The notes: generated from the sequence alone by a model not told the origin. 37,069 bases of DNA from Candidatus Thermoplasmatota archaeon (GCA_035541015.1 DATLFM010000093.1:1-37069), one strand, 5' to 3'. Shown: positions 3,311 through 18,292, counted from the stretch's first letter. Made by a program: numbers and translations.

Positions 3311-4144
3311 ATGGAGTCCAAGCGCATCGCGGTCCTTGGCGCCGGCAACATGGGCACCGCGCTCCTGCGTGGCATGCTCAAGGCCAAGTGGGCCAAGCCC
3401 GACAACCTCATGGCGACCCACCCGCGCAAGCAGCGCGTCGAGGAGATCCGGCGCACGCTTGGGATCGACGCCTCCGTCTCGAACGTCGAGGCCGCGCGAT
3501 GGGCCGACGTCGTCGTCCTCGCCGTGAAGCCGCAGATCGCCCACCGCGTGCTGCGTGAGATCGCGCCCGCCATGGGTCGCGGCAAGACGCTCGTGTCGAT
3601 CGCGGCGGGCGTGACCACGCGCGCCATCGAGCTCATGCTGCCGGAGGTTTCGGTCGTGCGCGCGATGCCAAACGTCGCCGTGACGGTCGATCTTGGCGCC
3701 ACCGCGATCTGCCGCGGCACGCGCGCGACCGACGCCGACTACGACGTCGCGCGCCACGTCTTCGAGGCCGTCGGGATCGCCGTCGAGGTCGAGGAGGCGC
3801 TCATGGACGCCGTCACCGGGCTCTCGGGTACGGGACCCATGTACGTCTTCCAGATCATCGAGGGCCTCTCCGACGCGGGCGTCAAGATGGGCCTCTCGCG
3901 CCACGCGGCCACCGAGCTTACGATCCAGACGGTGCTTGGCGCCGCCAAGATGGCGCAAGTGACCGGGCAGCACCCGGGTCTTCTGAAGGACCTCGTGACC
4001 TCCCCCGGCGGAACGGCCATCGCCGCCCTGCACAGCCTCGAGCAGGGCGGACTTCGCGCCCTTCTCATCGACGCGGTCGAGGTGGCGACGCAGCGCAGCG
4101 CCGAGCTTGGCCGCAACATGGAGGAGAGGGCGGGCACGAAGTAG
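3311..4144 (+). CDS. proC: Pyrroline-5-carboxylate reductase
   Basis: ProC reduces 1-pyrroline-5-carboxylate to L-proline with NAD(P)H, the last step of proline synthesis. The 277 residues match the family length. The Rossmann dinucleotide fold starts at residue 7 with VLGAGNMGTALLRGML. VVVLAVKPQ and LVSIAAGV follow, then RAMPNVAVTVDLGATAICRG, and the C-terminal dimerisation domain has DAVTGLSGTGPMYVFQIIEGL and the signature VTSPGGTAIAALHSLEQGGLR. The ATG at 3311 gives the standard start. The stop is followed four bases later by the GTATAC element, then by the convergent end of the radical SAM fusion gene. Identification is secure. Confidence 0.97.
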   Translation: MESKRIAVLGAGNMGTALLRGMLKAKWAKPDNLMATHPRKQRVEEIRRTLGIDASVSNVEAARWADVVVLAVKPQIAHRVLREIAPAMGRGKTLVSIAAGVTTRAIELMLPEVSVVRAMPNVAVTVDLGATAICRGTRATDADYDVARHVFEAVGIAVEVEEALMDAVTGLSGTGPMYVFQIIEGLSDAGVKMGLSRHAATELTIQTVLGAAKMAQVTGQHPGLLKDLVTSPGGTAIAALHSLEQGGLRALLIDAVEVATQRSAELGRNMEERAGTK

Positions 4145-4147
4145 GAC

Positions 4148-4176
4148 GTATACGTATGTATACAAACGTATACATC
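4148..4176. repeat. Phased GTATAC element, copy 1
   Basis: Three GTATAC palindromes begin at 4148, 4158 and 4168, exactly one helical turn apart, and the element ends ATC. A second copy at 31933-31961 matches 26 of 29 bases with unrelated flanks. Here it sits between the convergent 3' ends of proC and the radical SAM fusion gene, so it is not in a promoter. Confidence 0.85.
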
Positions 4177-4190
4177 CGCGCATTCCGTCG

Positions 4191-6692
4191 TCAGCGCAGC
4201 TTGGCGTTCGTGCGCGGCGCGATCTGCGCGAGCTTGCCGCCCACCGTGCGCGCCATCGCCGGCGGCGCGGGGTGCGACAGCAGCCGTCGCGTGAGGTCGT
4301 CGGCCTCCGCTCGGGCGACGATTCCCGTCGACTCGCGGCGCCGGTCGCGCCAATGGAGCGCGCCCAGGAGCGCGAAGTAGGCCGCGTGGATGGCCACGAA
4401 CAGGAAGGCGTCCAGAAGCGTCGCCGTCGGGAACTGGGTCCCCCCGATCGCGTCGGCAAGCGTGCCCAGCGCAAAACCGTAGGCCACGACGAGCGCGGGG
4501 ACGATGAGCAAGCCGAAGTAGGCGAGGAGGATGGCCACGCCCACGAAGTGCAGCAGGCCGTACGCGCGGACGACGCGCATCTCGCGCGGGCTGACGCGCG
4601 GCTCGGGAACGCTTTTCCAGCGCGGCCATGCGAAGGCGAGGCGGCGCTTGAGCCAGGCCTGCGCGTCGCCGTAGAGGTTGCGGCAGTCCAGCGCGTGGGC
4701 GACGATGTAGTACACGTCCATGCGCAGGTGCAGGAAGAACTGCAGCAGCAGGACGAGGACGCACAGGAGGGCCGTGAGGCGCAAGAGCGCGACGATCGTG
4801 GGGTCGGCAAGCGCCGGGACGATTCCGTACGTTCCGAGGAAGGAGAGCAGGATGGCGACGCCGGCGAGCCACGCGTCGGAGGCCATGCCGGCCACGTAGA
4901 CCTTGACGCGGTCCCACCGCGGCAGGAGCCACAGGTCGCTTGCGTCGGTCTGGACGGCGATGTAGGTGATGCGCGTTCCCAGGGACAGGCTTGCGCGCGA
5001 GCCGTGCGCGCGGGCGGTGAGGACGTGGGCGAGCTCGTGCTTGCCTACGATGAGGAGCATGACGCCAAAGACGGAGAGGCCCACGAACGTGTAGGACGAG
5101 GTCCAGAAGAAGTCGCGGTAGTTCGGGACGAAGGAGGAATCGGCGAGCATGACGCCCGTGGCCATCGCAAAGGGCGCAAGCAGAAGCGGCCACAGCCACA
5201 GGGAGCGCAGCCACCGAAGCTTCGCGGGGTCGACGTCGTCGAAGAGCGTGCGCCGCTTGCGGGGGACGAGGTGGCTGGGCAGCGGCTGCCCGTTGATCGC
5301 TTCCACGAATCCGCCCGCGGCCACGGAGCGCACGAATGCGCCCACGTCCACGTCGCGCCCGGTCTCCTCGCGCACGGCGCGGCGGACGGTCTCCACGCGC
5401 GGCTCGTCGCGCAGGCGGCGCAGGAGGTCGACGGCAAGCGGCGGCATCTCGGCGAAGGTGCCGCGGTCCGGGTTGCCGACGATCCACACGTCGTCCCGCT
5501 CCACCATCGAGAGGGGCGCAAGCGTGGCGGTCTCAACGGCCGTCGGGATGCCGTCGTCGCGGGGCGCGGCCTGCGACTGGCGGTGGTAGATGCATTCGAC
5601 AAGCGTGCCGTCCTCTTCCCGCAGGTGCAGCGAGGAGCCTTGGCACCAGTCCCATTCGGAGCACGTTTCGCACGGGCCTTTTCGGAAGCGGCTTGCGCGC
5701 TCGCCGCGGAACCATCCGTACCGCTCGTCCCAGATCTTGCGCAAGGGCTCCGTCCGGAGGTCCCCCTGCACGCCGATCTTCCGGTTGACCTCGAGGCACG
5801 TGGCGGCCTTTCCGTCGTAGAGGATGGAGGCGATGCGGGTTCCCGCGCCGCAGAAGAAGATGCCGTCGCGCACGCGTCCCTCGAACCGCGAGCCCACCCA
5901 CCCGTCGCAGATCCAGGAGATTCGGACGCCGCTTGCCTCGACGTTGGCGGGGCGGTTGCGGTCGGCGATCCAGTCGAGAAGGTCGCGCAGCTGCTCGTTC
6001 GTGAGGTGCGTGGACGGGTCGCGCGCGCGCCCGACGGGCGAGACGGGTCCCACGTTCCACGTGGGCACGCCAAGCTCCGAGACCAGCCGGTAGGCCTCGG
6101 GAACCTCGTGCCAGTTGTGGGGCGTGACGATCGTGTTGACCGTCACCTCGACGTGCGGGTGACGCTCGCGCAACGCGCGGATGGTCGTGAGGACGTCCTC
6201 GAACGAGCCGTCCTTGCAGCGCTGCGTGTCGTGGCCGCGCTTGGCGCCGTCGAGCGAGAGCGTGAAGAGGCTCACGCCGGACTCGACGAGGCGATCGAGG
6301 AGGGCGGGGTCGCGCGCGGTGAGCGATCCGTTCGTGGTGAGCGACACGGCGCGGAAGCCGAGCTTCTTGATGTGCGCGACGACCTCGCACAGGTCCTTTC
6401 GCAGCGTCGCCTCGCCGCCGGTGATGCCGACGGCGATCCGCGAAGCGTCGAAATCTTCCGCGATCTGCTCGAAAATGGCCTTGGCCTCGGCCGTCGAGAG
6501 CTCCTGCGGCCGCGACCACGCGGCTTCGCCTTCCTTCCCCTCGACGGGGTTGCCGCAGTGCAGGCACGCGAGGTTGCACGCGAGCGTGGCCTCCCAGAGG
6601 AGCCCCTGCAGATCGGGGTTCGCGATCGCGTCGAGCACCTGCTCTCGATGGCGGACGAGGGCCTGCTCGATGCTGAGGAGCTCCTCGGGCAT
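4191..6692 (-). CDS. Radical SAM/SPASM maturase fused to PqqD-like domain and M50 membrane metalloprotease
   Basis: An 833-residue fusion. Residues 1-365 form a radical SAM enzyme with the 4Fe-4S motif CNLACLHC (Cys39, 43, 46) and GITGGEATL, and a SPASM/twitch region binding auxiliary clusters (a Cys pair around ILYDGKAATC, then CETCSEWDWC and a further Cys). Residues about 395-470 resemble the PqqD/RRE-type domain found at the front of peptide zinc metalloproteases. The rest is a polytopic membrane domain with the zinc site KHELAHVLTARAHG near residue 550, an M50 HExxH motif. The family role is radical modification of a ribosomal peptide and intramembrane cleavage of it. In Bacillus YydFGHIJ these are separate proteins. 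The gene starts 26 nt after a tiny peptide gene and follows an ABC exporter pair on the same strand. GGAGG precedes ATG 6692. Domain calls are strong; the substrate is inferred. Confidence 0.92.
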   Translation of the reverse strand: MPEELLSIEQALVRHREQVLDAIANPDLQGLLWEATLACNLACLHCGNPVEGKEGEAAWSRPQELSTAEAKAIFEQIAEDFDASRIAVGITGGEATLRKDLCEVVAHIKKLGFRAVSLTTNGSLTARDPALLDRLVESGVSLFTLSLDGAKRGHDTQRCKDGSFEDVLTTIRALRERHPHVEVTVNTIVTPHNWHEVPEAYRLVSELGVPTWNVGPVSPVGRARDPSTHLTNEQLRDLLDWIADRNRPANVEASGVRISWICDGWVGSRFEGRVRDGIFFCGAGTRIASILYDGKAATCLEVNRKIGVQGDLRTEPLRKIWDERYGWFRGERASRFRKGPCETCSEWDWCQGSSLHLREEDGTLVECIYHRQSQAAPRDDGIPTAVETATLAPLSMVERDDVWIVGNPDRGTFAEMPPLAVDLLRRLRDEPRVETVRRAVREETGRDVDVGAFVRSVAAGGFVEAINGQPLPSHLVPRKRRTLFDDVDPAKLRWLRSLWLWPLLLAPFAMATGVMLADSSFVPNYRDFFWTSSYTFVGLSVFGVMLLIVGKHELAHVLTARAHGSRASLSLGTRITYIAVQTDASDLWLLPRWDRVKVYVAGMASDAWLAGVAILLSFLGTYGIVPALADPTIVALLRLTALLCVLVLLLQFFLHLRMDVYYIVAHALDCRNLYGDAQAWLKRRLAFAWPRWKSVPEPRVSPREMRVVRAYGLLHFVGVAILLAYFGLLIVPALVVAYGFALGTLADAIGGTQFPTATLLDAFLFVAIHAAYFALLGALHWRDRRRESTGIVARAEADDLTRRLLSHPAPPAMARTVGGKLAQIAPRTNAKLR

Positions 6693-6718
6693 GCCTCCGG
6701 CCGGACCGTCCTACCCGG

Positions 6719-6808
6719 CTACGCGGGGGATGGCCAGTGGCTCATGACCGTATTCAACGGGATCGACATTTCGAGCTTCTCAAGCCACTTGAACTCAATG
6801 GTTTCCAG
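6719..6808 (-). CDS. Candidate RiPP precursor peptide, about 29 residues, CTG start
   Basis: A tiny frame ends 26 nt before the radical SAM fusion. A nine-base perfect Shine-Dalgarno (AGGAGGTGA, 6822-6814) is followed after 5 nt by CTG at 6808, in frame with ETIEFKWLEKLEMS and then a Pro/Asn/His/Trp-containing tail ending SHWPSPA. The first half could form an amphipathic leader helix; the tail looks like a core. No ATG is suitably spaced. An ATT at 6799 (same frame) and a GTG at 6907 (62 residues) are alternative starts, but only CTG has normal spacing. The EFK segment recalls the NLEFKG part of Bacillus YydF, though this may be chance. The existence of a translated peptide is inferred from the ribosome site and position; the frame is too short for coding statistics. 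Confidence 0.6.
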   Translation of the reverse strand: METIEFKWLEKLEMSIPLNTVMSHWPSPA

Positions 6809-6813
6809 CCTTC

Positions 6814-6822
6814 TCACCTCCT
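6814..6822 (-). promoter_or_regulatory. Perfect Shine-Dalgarno for the peptide gene
   Basis: AGGAGGTGA on the minus strand is complementary to the archaeal 16S rRNA 3' end over nine bases, among the strongest ribosome sites I noticed in the window. A T6 tract at 6849-6855 lies about 26 bp upstream and might mark a weak promoter, or the end of the ABC transporter transcript. Confidence 0.65.
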
Positions 6823-6929
6823 TTCGCCCGCCCCCCGAGCGGTCCCACGCGAAAAAAGGGTTGCGGCAGTTTCCCCGCCGAAGGGGTGACGATCGGGCCG
6901 GCCACACGGAAATGAGTCGGTTGCGCCCG

Positions 6930-8012
6930 TCAGACCTCTTTCCAGTCGGTCATCGCCGCCCCCAACAGCACGAAGCCGATCGCAAGCGCGGCCGCGATCG
7001 CGCCGTTGAAGGCCATGGCCGAGGCGTTCTGGGTGATCATGGCCGCGCGGAGGCCTTCGTTCACGTACGTGAGCGGGAGCACTTTTGCGATCGAATGCAG
7101 GAGCGGAGGCATGCCCTCCAGCGGGAAGAACGTGCCCGACAGGAAGATCATGGGCATGGCCACGGCCGATCCGGCTGCGTTGGCGCTCTCCTGCTCGTTC
7201 ACATAGCGGGCGATCATCATGGACAGGCCGGCAAACGCGGCCGTGCCGGAGAAGAGGATGAGGATTGCAAACGGGTTCAAGAACACGCGCACGTCGAAGG
7301 CGAGCACGCCCACGACGATGATGGTCGTCGCCGTGATGGCGCCGATCACGCATTGGTAGAGCACCTTCGAGACGACCCACTCGAGCTTGGTGATGGGCGT
7401 CGTGGCGAGCTTCTTCAGGATGCCCTGCGAGCGGTAGCGCGCGAAAAGCTCGAGGTTCCCGATGAGCGCCGACATCGCGATCGTCATGCCGATGACGCCG
7501 GGCAGGAAGAAGTCCACGAAGGAGAGCTCGCTCGAAACGAGCGACTCCTGCGCAAGCTGCACGGCGGGCGAGCGCGCGCCGGCGAGCTCGAGGTTCATGC
7601 GGTCGACGACGCCGCGCACGACGGAGAAGGCGATGTTGCTGTTCGTCTGGCTCGGGTCGTGGTGGATTCGCACGACGGCCTCGCCTTGCTGGAGGGCGGC
7701 CGCGTAGCCAGGAGGAACGACGACGACCGTATGGTACCCTTCGCGGCGGGACGCCGCGACGGCGTCCTCGCCGGCGGGGATCGTGCGCAAATCGAACGAG
7801 CCGGTGTCCGCCAGCGCCTGCCGGAAGGCCTGGCTGGCCGGCGTGCCGTCGCGGTCCTGGAAGCCCAGCGTGACGTCGTCGCCGGCGTTTCCCAGGATGG
7901 AGCCGAACACGAGCATCATGAGCACGGGGAAGGCGATCGTCCAGAAGACGCCGCTGCGGCTCCGGAAGTAGATGCGAAGCGACGCGCGGAGGTCCACGAG
8001 CGCCCGCCTCAT
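6930..8012 (-). CDS. ABC-2 type transporter permease
   Basis: About 360 residues with the ABC-2 permease layout. One N-terminal transmembrane helix (about residues 22-42, VFWTIAFPVLMMLVFGSIL) precedes a large extracytoplasmic loop to about residue 170, then five hydrophobic helices follow. The segment FLSGTFFPLEGMPPLLHSIAKVLPLTYVNEGLR is the usual conserved stretch before the last helix. With the adjacent ATPase it would form an exporter. The start codon ATG 8012 overlaps the ATPase stop (ATGA, 8012-8009), so the two are translationally coupled. Given the radical SAM-protease fusion downstream, the likely cargo is the matured peptide or the pump confers self-immunity; that part is inference. 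Confidence 0.93.
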   Translation of the reverse strand: MRRALVDLRASLRIYFRSRSGVFWTIAFPVLMMLVFGSILGNAGDDVTLGFQDRDGTPASQAFRQALADTGSFDLRTIPAGEDAVAASRREGYHTVVVVPPGYAAALQQGEAVVRIHHDPSQTNSNIAFSVVRGVVDRMNLELAGARSPAVQLAQESLVSSELSFVDFFLPGVIGMTIAMSALIGNLELFARYRSQGILKKLATTPITKLEWVVSKVLYQCVIGAITATTIIVVGVLAFDVRVFLNPFAILILFSGTAAFAGLSMMIARYVNEQESANAAGSAVAMPMIFLSGTFFPLEGMPPLLHSIAKVLPLTYVNEGLRAAMITQNASAMAFNGAIAAALAIGFVLLGAAMTDWKEV

Positions 8013-8920
8013 GCGCCAACGCCTCCCAGGCGCTCGCCGGTGAGGGCAAGGAACGCGTCCTCGAGGTTTGGCGTGCGGACCTCGAGCGAGGCGAGGGTGG
8101 CCTTCGACGCAAGCGCCGACAGGACCTCCTCCAGGCGATGGTCGCCCGGGTCGATGGACAGGTGCGCGTTGTCCACCCGCACGCGCGCGCGGGGAAGCCA
8201 TCCGGCGACGCGATCGGCAAGGCCCGGCTCGGCCGGCAGTCGCACGGTCGTGGAGCCCGCGTGCGCGCGCACGATGGCGTCAGGCGCGTCAAGCGCGACG
8301 AGCTTGCCCCGGTGCACGATGCCCACGCGGTCGGAGAGCACCGCGGCCTCCTCCATGTAGTGGGTGGTGAGGAACACGGTCCGGCCGCCCGCGCGCAGCT
8401 TGCGGATGAGCTCCCACACCTGGCGACGCGCATGGGGATCGAGGCCCGTGGAGGGCTCGTCGAGGAAGACGAGCTCGGGGTCGTTCACGAGCGCGATCGC
8501 GACCCCCGTGCGCTGCTTCAATCCGCCCGAGAGCTCGAGGTAGAGCGTGTCCGCCTTCTCCGTGAGGCCCACGGAGGCGAGGAGTTCGTCCACGTCCGCG
8601 TTCGAGCCAAAGAGGTCGCGGAAGTAGCGGACGTTCTCGCGGACCGTGAGGCGGTCGAAGGTGTTGAAGTCCTGCGGCAGGACGCCGATCCGCTCGCGGA
8701 TGCGCGAGGCTTGGGTCTCCACGTCGTGGCCGAGCACGCGCACGCGGCCGCTCGTCTTTGCCCGCAGGCACTCGAGGATCTCCACGGTCGTGGTCTTGCC
8801 GGCGCCGTTGGGTCCAAGGAGCGCGAACACCTCGCCCTTCTCGACCGAGAAGGAGAGCCCGTCCACGGCGGAAAGCTCGCCGTAGCGCTTGACCAGCTGT
8901 TCCACCTCGACGACCGGCAT
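8009..8920 (-). CDS. ABC transporter ATP-binding protein
   Basis: About 303 residues. Walker A GPNGAGKTTT lies near residue 38, the Q-loop is in GVLPQDFNTFDRL, the signature is LSGGLKQR, Walker B is LVFLDEPSTGLDPHARR, and the H-switch is in LTTHYMEEA. A C-terminal extension of about 90 residues ends in a PNLEDAFLALTG motif, typical of DrrA/CcmA-like ATPases paired with ABC-2 permeases. The start ATG 8920 sits 26 nt downstream of a GCTATAAC TATA box, so the mRNA is probably leaderless. This is the promoter-proximal gene of the putative peptide cassette. It is divergent from the TraB-family gene. Confidence 0.95.
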   Translation of the reverse strand: MPVVEVEQLVKRYGELSAVDGLSFSVEKGEVFALLGPNGAGKTTTVEILECLRAKTSGRVRVLGHDVETQASRIRERIGVLPQDFNTFDRLTVRENVRYFRDLFGSNADVDELLASVGLTEKADTLYLELSGGLKQRTGVAIALVNDPELVFLDEPSTGLDPHARRQVWELIRKLRAGGRTVFLTTHYMEEAAVLSDRVGIVHRGKLVALDAPDAIVRAHAGSTTVRLPAEPGLADRVAGWLPRARVRVDNAHLSIDPGDHRLEEVLSALASKATLASLEVRTPNLEDAFLALTGERLGGVGA

Positions 8921-8942
8921 CCAAATCGCGATGCGCGCACGG

Positions 8943-8950
8943 GTTATAGC
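8943..8950 (-). promoter_or_regulatory. TATA box for the ABC/RiPP cassette
   Basis: GCTATAAC on the minus strand is centred 26 nt before ATG 8920, the spacing expected for a leaderless archaeal transcript. Confidence 0.65.
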
Positions 8951-15982: not shown

Positions 15983-17194
15983 TCATAAAACCGGGGCGGG
16001 TTCCGTCGCCCCGACCGCGCGCAGCCGCTTCGCGTACCAGTGCGCCGTGCTCGCGGGCAGACCCGTCGCCGCGGCAAGCTCGCGCACGCTTGCCGCGGGC
16101 CGCTGCGCAAGCGCCGCAAGGACGCGGCGCGCCGGCTCGCGCGCGAGCATCGCGCGCGCGGCAAGCTCCCGCTCCGACGCGGGGTCGCCGGCGGGCACGA
16201 ACATCGTGCGGCCGGCGGCGCGCCGCGGCACGAGCGAGCCGTGGTCGACGAGGAGGAGAAGGTGGTAGCGCGCGGTCGCCTTGTGCACGTCCATGGCGCG
16301 CGCGACCTCCGTCGCCGTCACGTGCCCGTGCGCGACGGCCAATCCGTAGATGCGCTGGCGCAGGTCGCTCTCGAACACGCGCCCGTCGCGGTGGAGGCGG
16401 TGCAGGAGGGAGATGAGCGCGGCCGCGATCGCCGCGGCAATCGCAAGGAGCGTCGAGGGCGGCTCCCAGGGCGCGTGCGCGAACGCGGGCGTTGCCGCCG
16501 ACGCGAGGGGGGAACGGGATGTGGCGGGCGCGGGCGGGCGGGGGATCCATGCGGGGTTCGTCGACGCGGCCGAATCGGTTCCCGCCCGTGCGGCAAGCGT
16601 CGGCGTCGGGTCGTCGTGGTTGGACCCAACGGGCGCGATGGCCGACGTTGGCGCCGGCGCCGGCCCGTTCGCGGGCGCCTCGGGCGCGAGGCTCGCCCGC
16701 GCGCAGACGTTGGCCGGCTCGGGAAGGCTCGAGGAGGTGAAGCTTGCGCAGGCCGCCACGAGCGTGCCTGCCGTGACCGCGTCGAGGTCTACCGCAAGCG
16801 TTTCGCCGTCGAGGGTGTTCGTTGCGTCGGTGCCGGCGGCCCAGGCGATCTCGCCCTCCTCGTCGGGGAGCAGTTCCGTCGCCGCGTCGTGCGCGCCTTG
16901 CACGGCGCCCGGCGCGTCAAGGCTGGTTTCGTCGACCGCCGGCGCGGGCGGTTCGGTTGCGAGGGCTTCGCCCGCTTTCTCGATGGCGATCGCGCACGCG
17001 GCCGAGAGCGTCTTGGGATCGGCGGTCGCGTGGACGTTGTGCACCGTCACGGGGTAGGGCTGCGGGTCCAGTCCCGCGGCGCGCCAGGGCTCGCACGGGT
17101 CGAGCGCGGCCGCGGGGGTCGACGCCAGAAGCGGAAGGAGAGCGGCGGCCAGAAGCGCGCCGGCGGCCGCCGGCTCGCGCGCGACTCTTCTCAT
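15983..17194 (-). CDS. Membrane-anchored protein with tandem winged-helix domains (A)
   Basis: About 403 residues. An N-terminal signal/anchor (AAAGALLAAALLPLLASTPAAA) leads to about 200 residues of Ala/Pro/Thr-rich, poorly conserved-looking ectodomain with several Cys, then a helix LLAIAAAIAAALISLL near residue 255. The C-terminal 130 residues hold two MarR/ArsR-like winged helices, the first with VTATEVARAMDVHKATARYHLLLLVDHGSL and the second with SVRELAAATGLPASTAHWYAKRL. The topology predicts DNA binding in the cytoplasm under the control of an outside domain. Its ATG overlaps the stop of the Cys-rich secreted protein gene (ATGA, 17194-17191), so the two are coupled. Two more proteins of this architecture occur at 26463 and 35970. 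Confidence 0.85.
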   Translation of the reverse strand: MRRVAREPAAAGALLAAALLPLLASTPAAALDPCEPWRAAGLDPQPYPVTVHNVHATADPKTLSAACAIAIEKAGEALATEPPAPAVDETSLDAPGAVQGAHDAATELLPDEEGEIAWAAGTDATNTLDGETLAVDLDAVTAGTLVAACASFTSSSLPEPANVCARASLAPEAPANGPAPAPTSAIAPVGSNHDDPTPTLAARAGTDSAASTNPAWIPRPPAPATSRSPLASAATPAFAHAPWEPPSTLLAIAAAIAAALISLLHRLHRDGRVFESDLRQRIYGLAVAHGHVTATEVARAMDVHKATARYHLLLLVDHGSLVPRRAAGRTMFVPAGDPASERELAARAMLAREPARRVLAALAQRPAASVRELAAATGLPASTAHWYAKRLRAVGATEPAPVL

Positions 17195-17592
17195 TTGATG
17201 TACGTCCCGTTGCACGGGCACTCGCCGCTTTGCAGCTTGGGCGATCCTACGCAACCGTACACGTTCGTGATTTCTGCGACGGCGCCGCTGAACACGATCG
17301 CGACGCACGTGGTGCTCGCGTGGGCGCCCACCGTGCAGAGGACGGGGCCGGTCTGGGCCGAGCAGATGAAGTACTGAGGAGACCCGAAGACGTGGTATTG
17401 GCAGCTGCCGCAGGCTTGCCAGCCGAACTGGTCCTCGCAGAGGGCGCGGACAGCGGGATCGACGAAGGCGCTTGCCGGGGGGGCGGCGGCCGCAAGGCAA
17501 AGCGCCACGGCAAAGCCGGCGCCAAGAGCGATCCGGAGCGGCCGGCGCCAGCGGCCGGCGGTCCTTGGTCCTCCCAAGCCTGTCCCAATCAT
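17191..17592 (-). CDS. Cys-rich secreted protein
   Basis: About 133 residues. A signal peptide (GAGFAVALCLAAAAPPASA) precedes a mature domain with nine Cys, including CEDQFGWQACGSCQYHVFG, FICSAQTGPVLC and GECPCNGTYIK. This suggests a small disulfide-stabilised extracellular protein; I do not recognise the family. It is translationally coupled to the downstream membrane winged-helix protein, so it may be the signal or sensor partner of that regulator. This is inferred from the overlap only. Confidence 0.75.
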   Translation of the reverse strand: MIGTGLGGPRTAGRWRRPLRIALGAGFAVALCLAAAAPPASAFVDPAVRALCEDQFGWQACGSCQYHVFGSPQYFICSAQTGPVLCTVGAHASTTCVAIVFSGAVAEITNVYGCVGSPKLQSGECPCNGTYIK

Positions 17593-17622
17593 GCTCTCCC
17601 CCCCGTCCGGCGGCTGGAGACG

Positions 17623-17631
17623 GCTTAAACC
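17623..17631 (-). promoter_or_regulatory. TATA box for the Cys-rich/winged-helix pair
   Basis: GGTTTAAGC on the minus strand is centred about 35 nt upstream of ATG 17592 with a GGGGGAG ribosome site between them. Confidence 0.55.
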
Positions 17632-17732
17632 TTTTCGTGCGGTCGTTGGAAACGTCGCCCCGGCTGGGGGCCTTCCAAGCCTCGTTCGAAAACGCCCAAG
17701 AGCCCGCCCTCCGCGTCCGGCCCGGTGAACGC

Positions 17733-17963
17733 ATGTCGGAACGAAACCTTGGAACTCGATGGGCGGCGGCTGCGATCCTCGTCGTGGCCGCTCTGAGCGC
17801 GACCGTTCTTCTGGCCCCCGCGGCCGAGGCGGGGTCGATCACGCTGTGCGGGTCGGGAGGCTGCTCGACGCACTACCGCGGCACGTTGCCGATCGGCGAC
17901 CACTGCGTCAACACGACGGGCTCGGGCGACCCGTGCGGCGGCTCGGCGCCGGCGGTCAAGTAG
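17733..17963 (+). CDS. Small secreted Cys peptide
   Basis: About 76 residues from ATG 17733. The signal peptide WAAAAILVVAALSATVLLAPAAEA is followed by a mature peptide of some 43 residues with four Cys (LCGSGGCSTHY, DHCVNTT, DPCGG), enough for two disulfides. No family recognised. It is transcribed away from the Cys-rich/winged-helix pair and sits 74 nt before another small secreted Cys protein. Confidence 0.6.
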   Translation: MSERNLGTRWAAAAILVVAALSATVLLAPAAEAGSITLCGSGGCSTHYRGTLPIGDHCVNTTGSGDPCGGSAPAVK

Positions 17964-18037
17964 GTGTGGGAGGCCTTCAACCCATGTGGAAAAATCAGGA
18001 ACCTCCGCGCGCGCGGCCGAGGCTCGGCGCGCTTCGG

Positions 18038-18292
18038 ATGGATGAACGGAGCCGACCGTCGAGCTTGAGGAAGCGAGCGATCGCAGCCGGCATCGTGGTG
18101 GTGCTCGCGCTTGGCGTCCTTGCCCTCTCGGGCGCGGCCTCGGCGTGGCAGACGGCCCCTTGCAAGCACTATTGGGCCGGCAAATGCCAGGACGGGACGA
18201 CGTACAGCTACAACTGCAAGCGCTATTGGTACAAGAACTCGGAAGGCGAGTGGCGGTCCTCGACGTACTGCCAGCAATGGTCGAGCCGCTGA
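18038..18292 (+). CDS. Small secreted Cys/Tyr/Trp-rich peptide
   Basis: About 84 residues from ATG 18038. A basic N-terminus and hydrophobic stretch (AIAAGIVVVLALGVLALSGAASA) form a signal peptide. The mature part is aromatic and Cys-rich: APCKHYWAGKCQDG, YSYNCKRYWYKN, and STYCQQW, four Cys in about 45 residues. No family recognised. Together with the preceding gene and the one at 17191 it forms a local group of three small secreted Cys proteins. Confidence 0.6.
   Translation: MDERSRPSSLRKRAIAAGIVVVLALGVLALSGAASAWQTAPCKHYWAGKCQDGTTYSYNCKRYWYKNSEGEWRSSTYCQQWSSR

Follow-up and report, generated by a model that had tools for sequence, protein, structure and literature searches.

The locus occupies positions 4,191–8,950 of a 37,069-nucleotide stretch of DNA from a Candidatus Thermoplasmatota archaeon (GCA_035541015.1, DATLFM010000093.1:1-37069); this whole stretch is hereafter called the window. 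The 16S and 23S rRNAs of the genome were both fitted best by archaeal Rfam models. As the original prediction had it, an ABC ATPase, an ABC-2 permease, a mini-ORF, and a large fusion protein lie together on the minus strand (Table 1). The cassette of mini-ORF and fusion gene has as its neighbours the ABC pair, proC, and a TraB-like gene. On the opposite strand, an open frame of 1417 aa (4107-8360, +) runs antisense to the cassette; it was not picked by the codon model and is a typical artefact of high GC content. Elsewhere in the window, several small proteins that are rich in Cys and predicted to be secreted are encoded close together (17191-18292).

Table 1. Features of the locus, in window coordinates
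Feature	Position	Strand	Details
Fusion protein	4191-6692	-	833 aa, single ORF; rSAM-SPASM-RRE-M50
Intramembrane M50 metalloprotease domain	4458-5105	-	Residues ~530-745; PF02163 E 1.7e-4; NF041824 E 8.8e-12
RRE / PqqD-like domain	5295-5546	-	Residues ~383-466; hhalign, AlphaFold model, Foldseek
SPASM domain	5661-5852	-	Residues 281-344; PF13186 E 7.5e-7
Radical SAM domain	6084-6587	-	Residues 36-203; CNLACLHC cluster motif; PF04055 E 1.7e-22
Candidate precursor peptide gene	6719-6808	-	Putative CTG start, 29 aa: METIEFKWLEKLEMSIPLNTVMSHWPSPA
Shine-Dalgarno AAGGAGGTGA	6814-6823	-	10 nt, 5 nt ahead of CTG
ABC-2 permease	6930-8012	-	PF12698 E 6.8e-35; neighbour, membership doubtful
ABC ATPase, DrrA-like	8009-8920	-	PF00005 E 2.7e-32; neighbour, membership doubtful

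The union of a radical SAM/SPASM maturase, a PqqD-like recognition domain, and an M50 protease in one protein, also part of the original prediction, was borne out by Pfam, hhalign, a structural model, and sequence motifs. Pfam cut-offs were passed by the radical SAM and SPASM domains. Among NCBIfam families, the best relative of the radical SAM part was TIGR04133 (229.4 bits, below the curated cut-off of 425), and the SPASM-region cysteines C281, C299, C341, C344, C350, and C367 are invariant in the window protein and in the one other copy of the fusion that we found (see below). The M50 match fell below the Pfam cut-off (21.5 vs 27.2 bits); its motifs, HELAH at residues 552-556 and R-x-D-x-Y (D659; RMD at 657-659), are intact and are kept among the homologues.

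The PqqD-like domain was not detected by Pfam. Aligned by hhalign with archaeal PqqD proteins, a profile of 11 homologous modules reached 73% probability (E 3.2e-5), while reversed and five shuffled control profiles gave 0.1-0.4%. An AlphaFold model of the RRE-M50 half, built from six sequences (mean pLDDT 66, with an unreliable transmembrane part), placed the secondary structure in the bbb-aaa order of an RRE, with strands at 6-9, 13-17, 20-25, and 30-34 followed by helices at 36-47, 51-62, and 68-77. The short, high-probability PDB matches returned by Foldseek were RREs, either leader-bound or fused to RiPP enzymes (6jx3, 5v1u, 5lq4, 8vpo, 6gos, 5why); their E-values exceeded 0.1 because the query includes the long, poorly modelled transmembrane part.

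The mini-gene and its archaeal counterpart

The start of the mini-gene is most likely the CTG at position 6808, which is favored by the Shine-Dalgarno sequence just before it. The 3' end of the 16S rRNA (...GGATCACCTCCT) is complementary to this element over the stretch CACCTCCT, and the Shine-Dalgarno matches of 100 called genes from seven loci do not exceed 7 nt (range 0-7), compared with 10 nt here. We rejected two other starts: (i) an upstream GTG (62 aa), as the nearest in-frame GTG overlaps the Shine-Dalgarno and has no counterpart in the second genome, and (ii) an internal ATG (16 aa), which has no Shine-Dalgarno. CTG starts are rare, and standard gene callers would miss the gene on account of this one.

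Genome G003, which represents a different family within the same archaeal order, encodes a full-length homologue with 60% identity; directly upstream of this homologue lies a mini-gene (L033:359-451) encoding METIDVKWLEKLEMTSLHTNTVMTHFPAAW from a TTG start, with an 8-nt Shine-Dalgarno 4 nt ahead. The two mini-ORFs score 99 in a six-frame translated comparison, against 44+-5 (maximum 70) for 400 dinucleotide-shuffled pairs. Their base differences by codon position number 8/6/14, so that 14 of the 28 fall at position 3. Both peptides share the leader motif F/V-K-W-L-E-K-L-E-M and the core NTVM[S/T]H[W/F]P, a core motif drawn from two sequences because only two of the genomes searched carry the fusion. 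Neither precursor contains cysteine, and the C-termini differ (SPA vs AAW). The window peptide would divide into a leader of approximately METIEFKWLEKLEM(S) and a core of approximately (S)IPLNTVMSHWPSPA.

Distribution of the fusion and of the leader

The fusion is carried by just two of the 390 genomes scanned for the phylum, that of the window (G000) and G003. A search of the genome contigs with the full-length pair yielded no more fusions, and none was found in viral contigs; searched against the genome contigs, the RRE-M50 half matched only G004 and planctomycete/lipoyl-type M50 proteins. A degenerate KWLEKLEM pattern likewise had exact matches in G000 and G003 only, and the inexact matches that we inspected (in G239, G219, and G159) proved to lie in long ORFs or in frames open by chance. 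A further M50 match of the phylum, the only other one inspected (G040), turned out to be an ordinary PDZ-type site-2 protease. Our search of the open-access literature turned up no previous account of an rSAM-RRE-M50 fusion.

Genome G004 (Centralia_MAG_189), grouped in the same archaeal order, holds a separate cluster (L066:3695-12743) resembling a class V lanthipeptide system. By eye, we assigned to it a phosphotransferase, HopA1-like, LanC-like, and luciferase-like monooxygenase genes, an unfused RRE-M50 protease, and five Cys-rich precursors with the common leader ...DVESLENTSI / DIEQLENTSI. GenBank lists this MAG as 'Proteobacteria bacterium', whereas the genome set groups it in the window's archaeal order; its contamination is 6%.

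Bacterial homologues of the RRE-M50 half, 27-33% identical, are encoded on actinobacterial plasmids, most of them forming a two-gene unit with a preceding ThiF-family adenylyltransferase gene. The same pairing occurs in Priestia, and one Streptomyces locus lacks an annotated ThiF beside the RRE-M50 gene. The Nonomuraea ThiF protein exceeds the cut-off set for the leader-binding family TIGR03882, and the bacterial RRE-M50 proteins resemble the daptide metalloprotease family NF041824. On a Macrococcus plasmid (L112), ThiF, arginase-like, cysteine-hydrolase, and RRE-M50 genes stand in a row; no leader-bearing peptide was found at that locus. A region of a Muribaculaceae plasmid (L113:768-5762) codes for a metalloprotease of the daptide type (NF041824, 103 bits) together with a radical SAM protein and a large outer-membrane-like protein.

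Beside most of the bacterial RRE-M50 genes, tiny ORFs carry a leader similar to that of the archaeal peptides (e.g., KLEVKIRKLEKIETTI, MEKIEIRPLDRLETTA, PARIGFRRLERVETTN, and MKKIVVRKLATVTVPQ), with several copies in Priestia (L110), where the profile scan returned three. At L105-L110 (Streptomyces, Nocardia, Nonomuraea, Actinacidiphila, Priestia), such precursor-like ORFs are missing from the annotation tables. The bacterial peptides were first chosen by eye from a Shine-Dalgarno-filtered list, and a leave-one-out test was made afterwards: the held-out peptide ranked first in eight of nine loci, the window included, and fifth of 214 in G003. A profile built from the bacterial leaders alone placed the window peptide first among 786 open frames of the window and L033. 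Taken together, the strong Shine-Dalgarno, the conservation in G003, and the leader ranking indicate that the 29-aa peptide is very probably a RiPP precursor and the substrate of the adjacent fusion. The hidden precursor gene that the original prediction had placed in front of the fusion thus gains support from the G003 mini-gene, the Shine-Dalgarno, and the leader profile.

A proposed pathway and its alternatives

We favor, with considerable confidence, a compact and apparently undescribed archaeal RiPP pathway with a two-gene core. The RiPP interpretation of the original prediction, in which a precursor is served by an rSAM-RRE-protease fusion, is strongly supported by the conservation in G003 and by the leader held in common with bacterial RRE-M50 loci. 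In the proposed pathway, the precursor would be translated from its CTG behind the very strong Shine-Dalgarno, and the mid-protein RRE may grip the F/V-K-W-L-E-K-L-E-M leader. The N-terminal rSAM/SPASM domain would then modify the Cys-free core, and the C-terminal intramembrane M50 domain would remove the leader, by analogy with daptides probably just past LEM[S/T]. A modified peptide of 14-15 residues would be released and might need no ABC exporter of its own. The lack of cysteine in the core rules out thioethers of the sacti- or ranthipeptide kind; the radical step most likely forms a crosslink involving W/F/H, of the C-C or another side-chain type, with epimerisation as the next choice. 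Judged from sequence, the product is very probably an archaeal, Cys-free, rSAM-modified RiPP whose maturase, recognition domain, and leader protease are joined in one chain. We put forward more tentatively, as a possibility short of even, that the locus defines an archaeal RiPP class, in which a single polypeptide modifies, recognises the leader, and cleaves in the membrane, and in which a CTG-hidden precursor with an NTVMxH[WF]P core gives rise to a type of product not yet described (crosslinked peptide, signal, or cofactor).

The original prediction went further in making the upstream ABC ATPase and permease the exporter of a complete, Yyd-like system. The permease stop lies on the same strand, 121 bp before the peptide start, and ABC transporters are encoded in daptide and Yyd clusters too. 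However, an orthologous ABC pair (permease 46%) occurs in G001, from the window's own family (genome 76% complete), without an adjoining fusion; conversely, the 360 bp of contig that remain upstream of the G003 peptide and fusion contain no ABC gene, nor does that genome (97% complete) hold a close ABC orthologue, its best match being 27%. The gap between permease and peptide contains a T6 tract and folds into no unusual RNA structure, so that the pair and the peptide gene may or may not share a transcript. Since G001 has the pair but no adjoining fusion, and none is seen beside the fusion of G003, we regard the pair as probably a neighbor rather than part of the core system, and its role as exporter as unlikely.

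Alternatively, the product might resemble PQQ, mycofactocin, or the pearlins in being a small redox cofactor or just one modified residue, with the M50 domain acting near the C-terminus. The precursor is very short, SPASM relatives include PqqE and the mycofactocin maturase, and in pearlins the M50 proteases TglG/TmoG release C-terminal residues (PMC10885120). Against this stand the unconserved tails of the two peptides, the absence of PEARL or PQQ-type partner genes nearby, and the daptide-like leader and protease, so that we consider such a product improbable. Less probable still is that the mini-ORF serves as an untranslated leader or attenuator of the fusion gene, the real substrate lying elsewhere: its place just upstream of the fusion and its non-ATG start would suit such an element, but the third-position bias, the strong Shine-Dalgarno, and a leader found on unlinked bacterial peptides argue against it.

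Few RiPPs of archaea are known from experiment, and those of recent date are lanthipeptides of haloarchaea (PMC12144867). A pathway of the kind that we favor, with a two-gene core and maturase and protease in one protein, would be convenient to express and test. Via a portable RRE-protease module, the common leader ties the radical SAM pathway of an archaeon to the ThiF and daptide pathways of bacteria, which suggests that protease and leader travel jointly between different chemistries. As most of the precursors lack annotation (for the archaeon, owing to CTG or TTG starts), more such systems have likely been overlooked.

Comparison with known systems

TIGR04133 is the closest named family for the radical SAM part; its partner there is a lipoprotein, and no RRE-M50 protein accompanies it. 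The Yyd/Epe epipeptide system (YydFGHIJ), which the original prediction took as its model, resembles the archaeal locus in its short precursor, rSAM enzyme, and M50 protease, but there these functions reside in separate proteins, and the YydH family NF058609 is not the one closest to the archaeal protease: it gave no match to the window module at E<=1 and reached only E 0.0043 with that of G003. The protease half of the window protein matches NF041824 instead (44.8 bits; curated cut-off 300), and on these profiles the RRE-M50 module is closest to the daptide leader protease DapP/MpaP. YydIJ, moreover, is a postulated immunity transporter (PMC7026026), which contradicts its earlier description as an exporter. 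The ThiF cassettes of actinobacteria and Bacillota share with the archaeal locus a homologous RRE-M50 protein and a similar leader on a tiny ORF; they differ in that the modifier is an unfused ThiF-like adenylyltransferase and the core sequences are unrelated.

In daptides, the leader protease joins an RRE to a site-2 protease of the intramembrane type, the leader reads ELExMEAP, and recognition and processing via the RRE protein MpaB require its L(-7) and M(-4) (PMC10036551); for some daptide clusters, radical SAM enzymes have been noted among the accessory genes. Daptide and archaeal systems alike have tiny precursors and an RRE N-terminal to the intramembrane M50 domain. By contrast, the archaeal locus bears an rSAM/SPASM part fused in front and lacks DapB/C/D/M genes: neither DapB (DUF-RRE), nor an oxidative decarboxylase, nor an aminotransferase was found in the flanks of the window or G003 copies. 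The invariant C-terminal Thr and the aliphatic core of daptides are also missing from both archaeal peptides. With neither that Thr nor DapB/C/D, membership in the daptide family fails on predicted gene and peptide content. The closest resemblance is in the leader, where both follow L-E-x-[M/L]-E and WLEKLEM[S/T] (WLEKLEMS in the window) aligns with ELExMEAP; from this alignment, cleavage is predicted after the S/T, which would release the cores IPLNTVMSHWPSPA in the window and SLHTNTVMTHFPAAW in G003.
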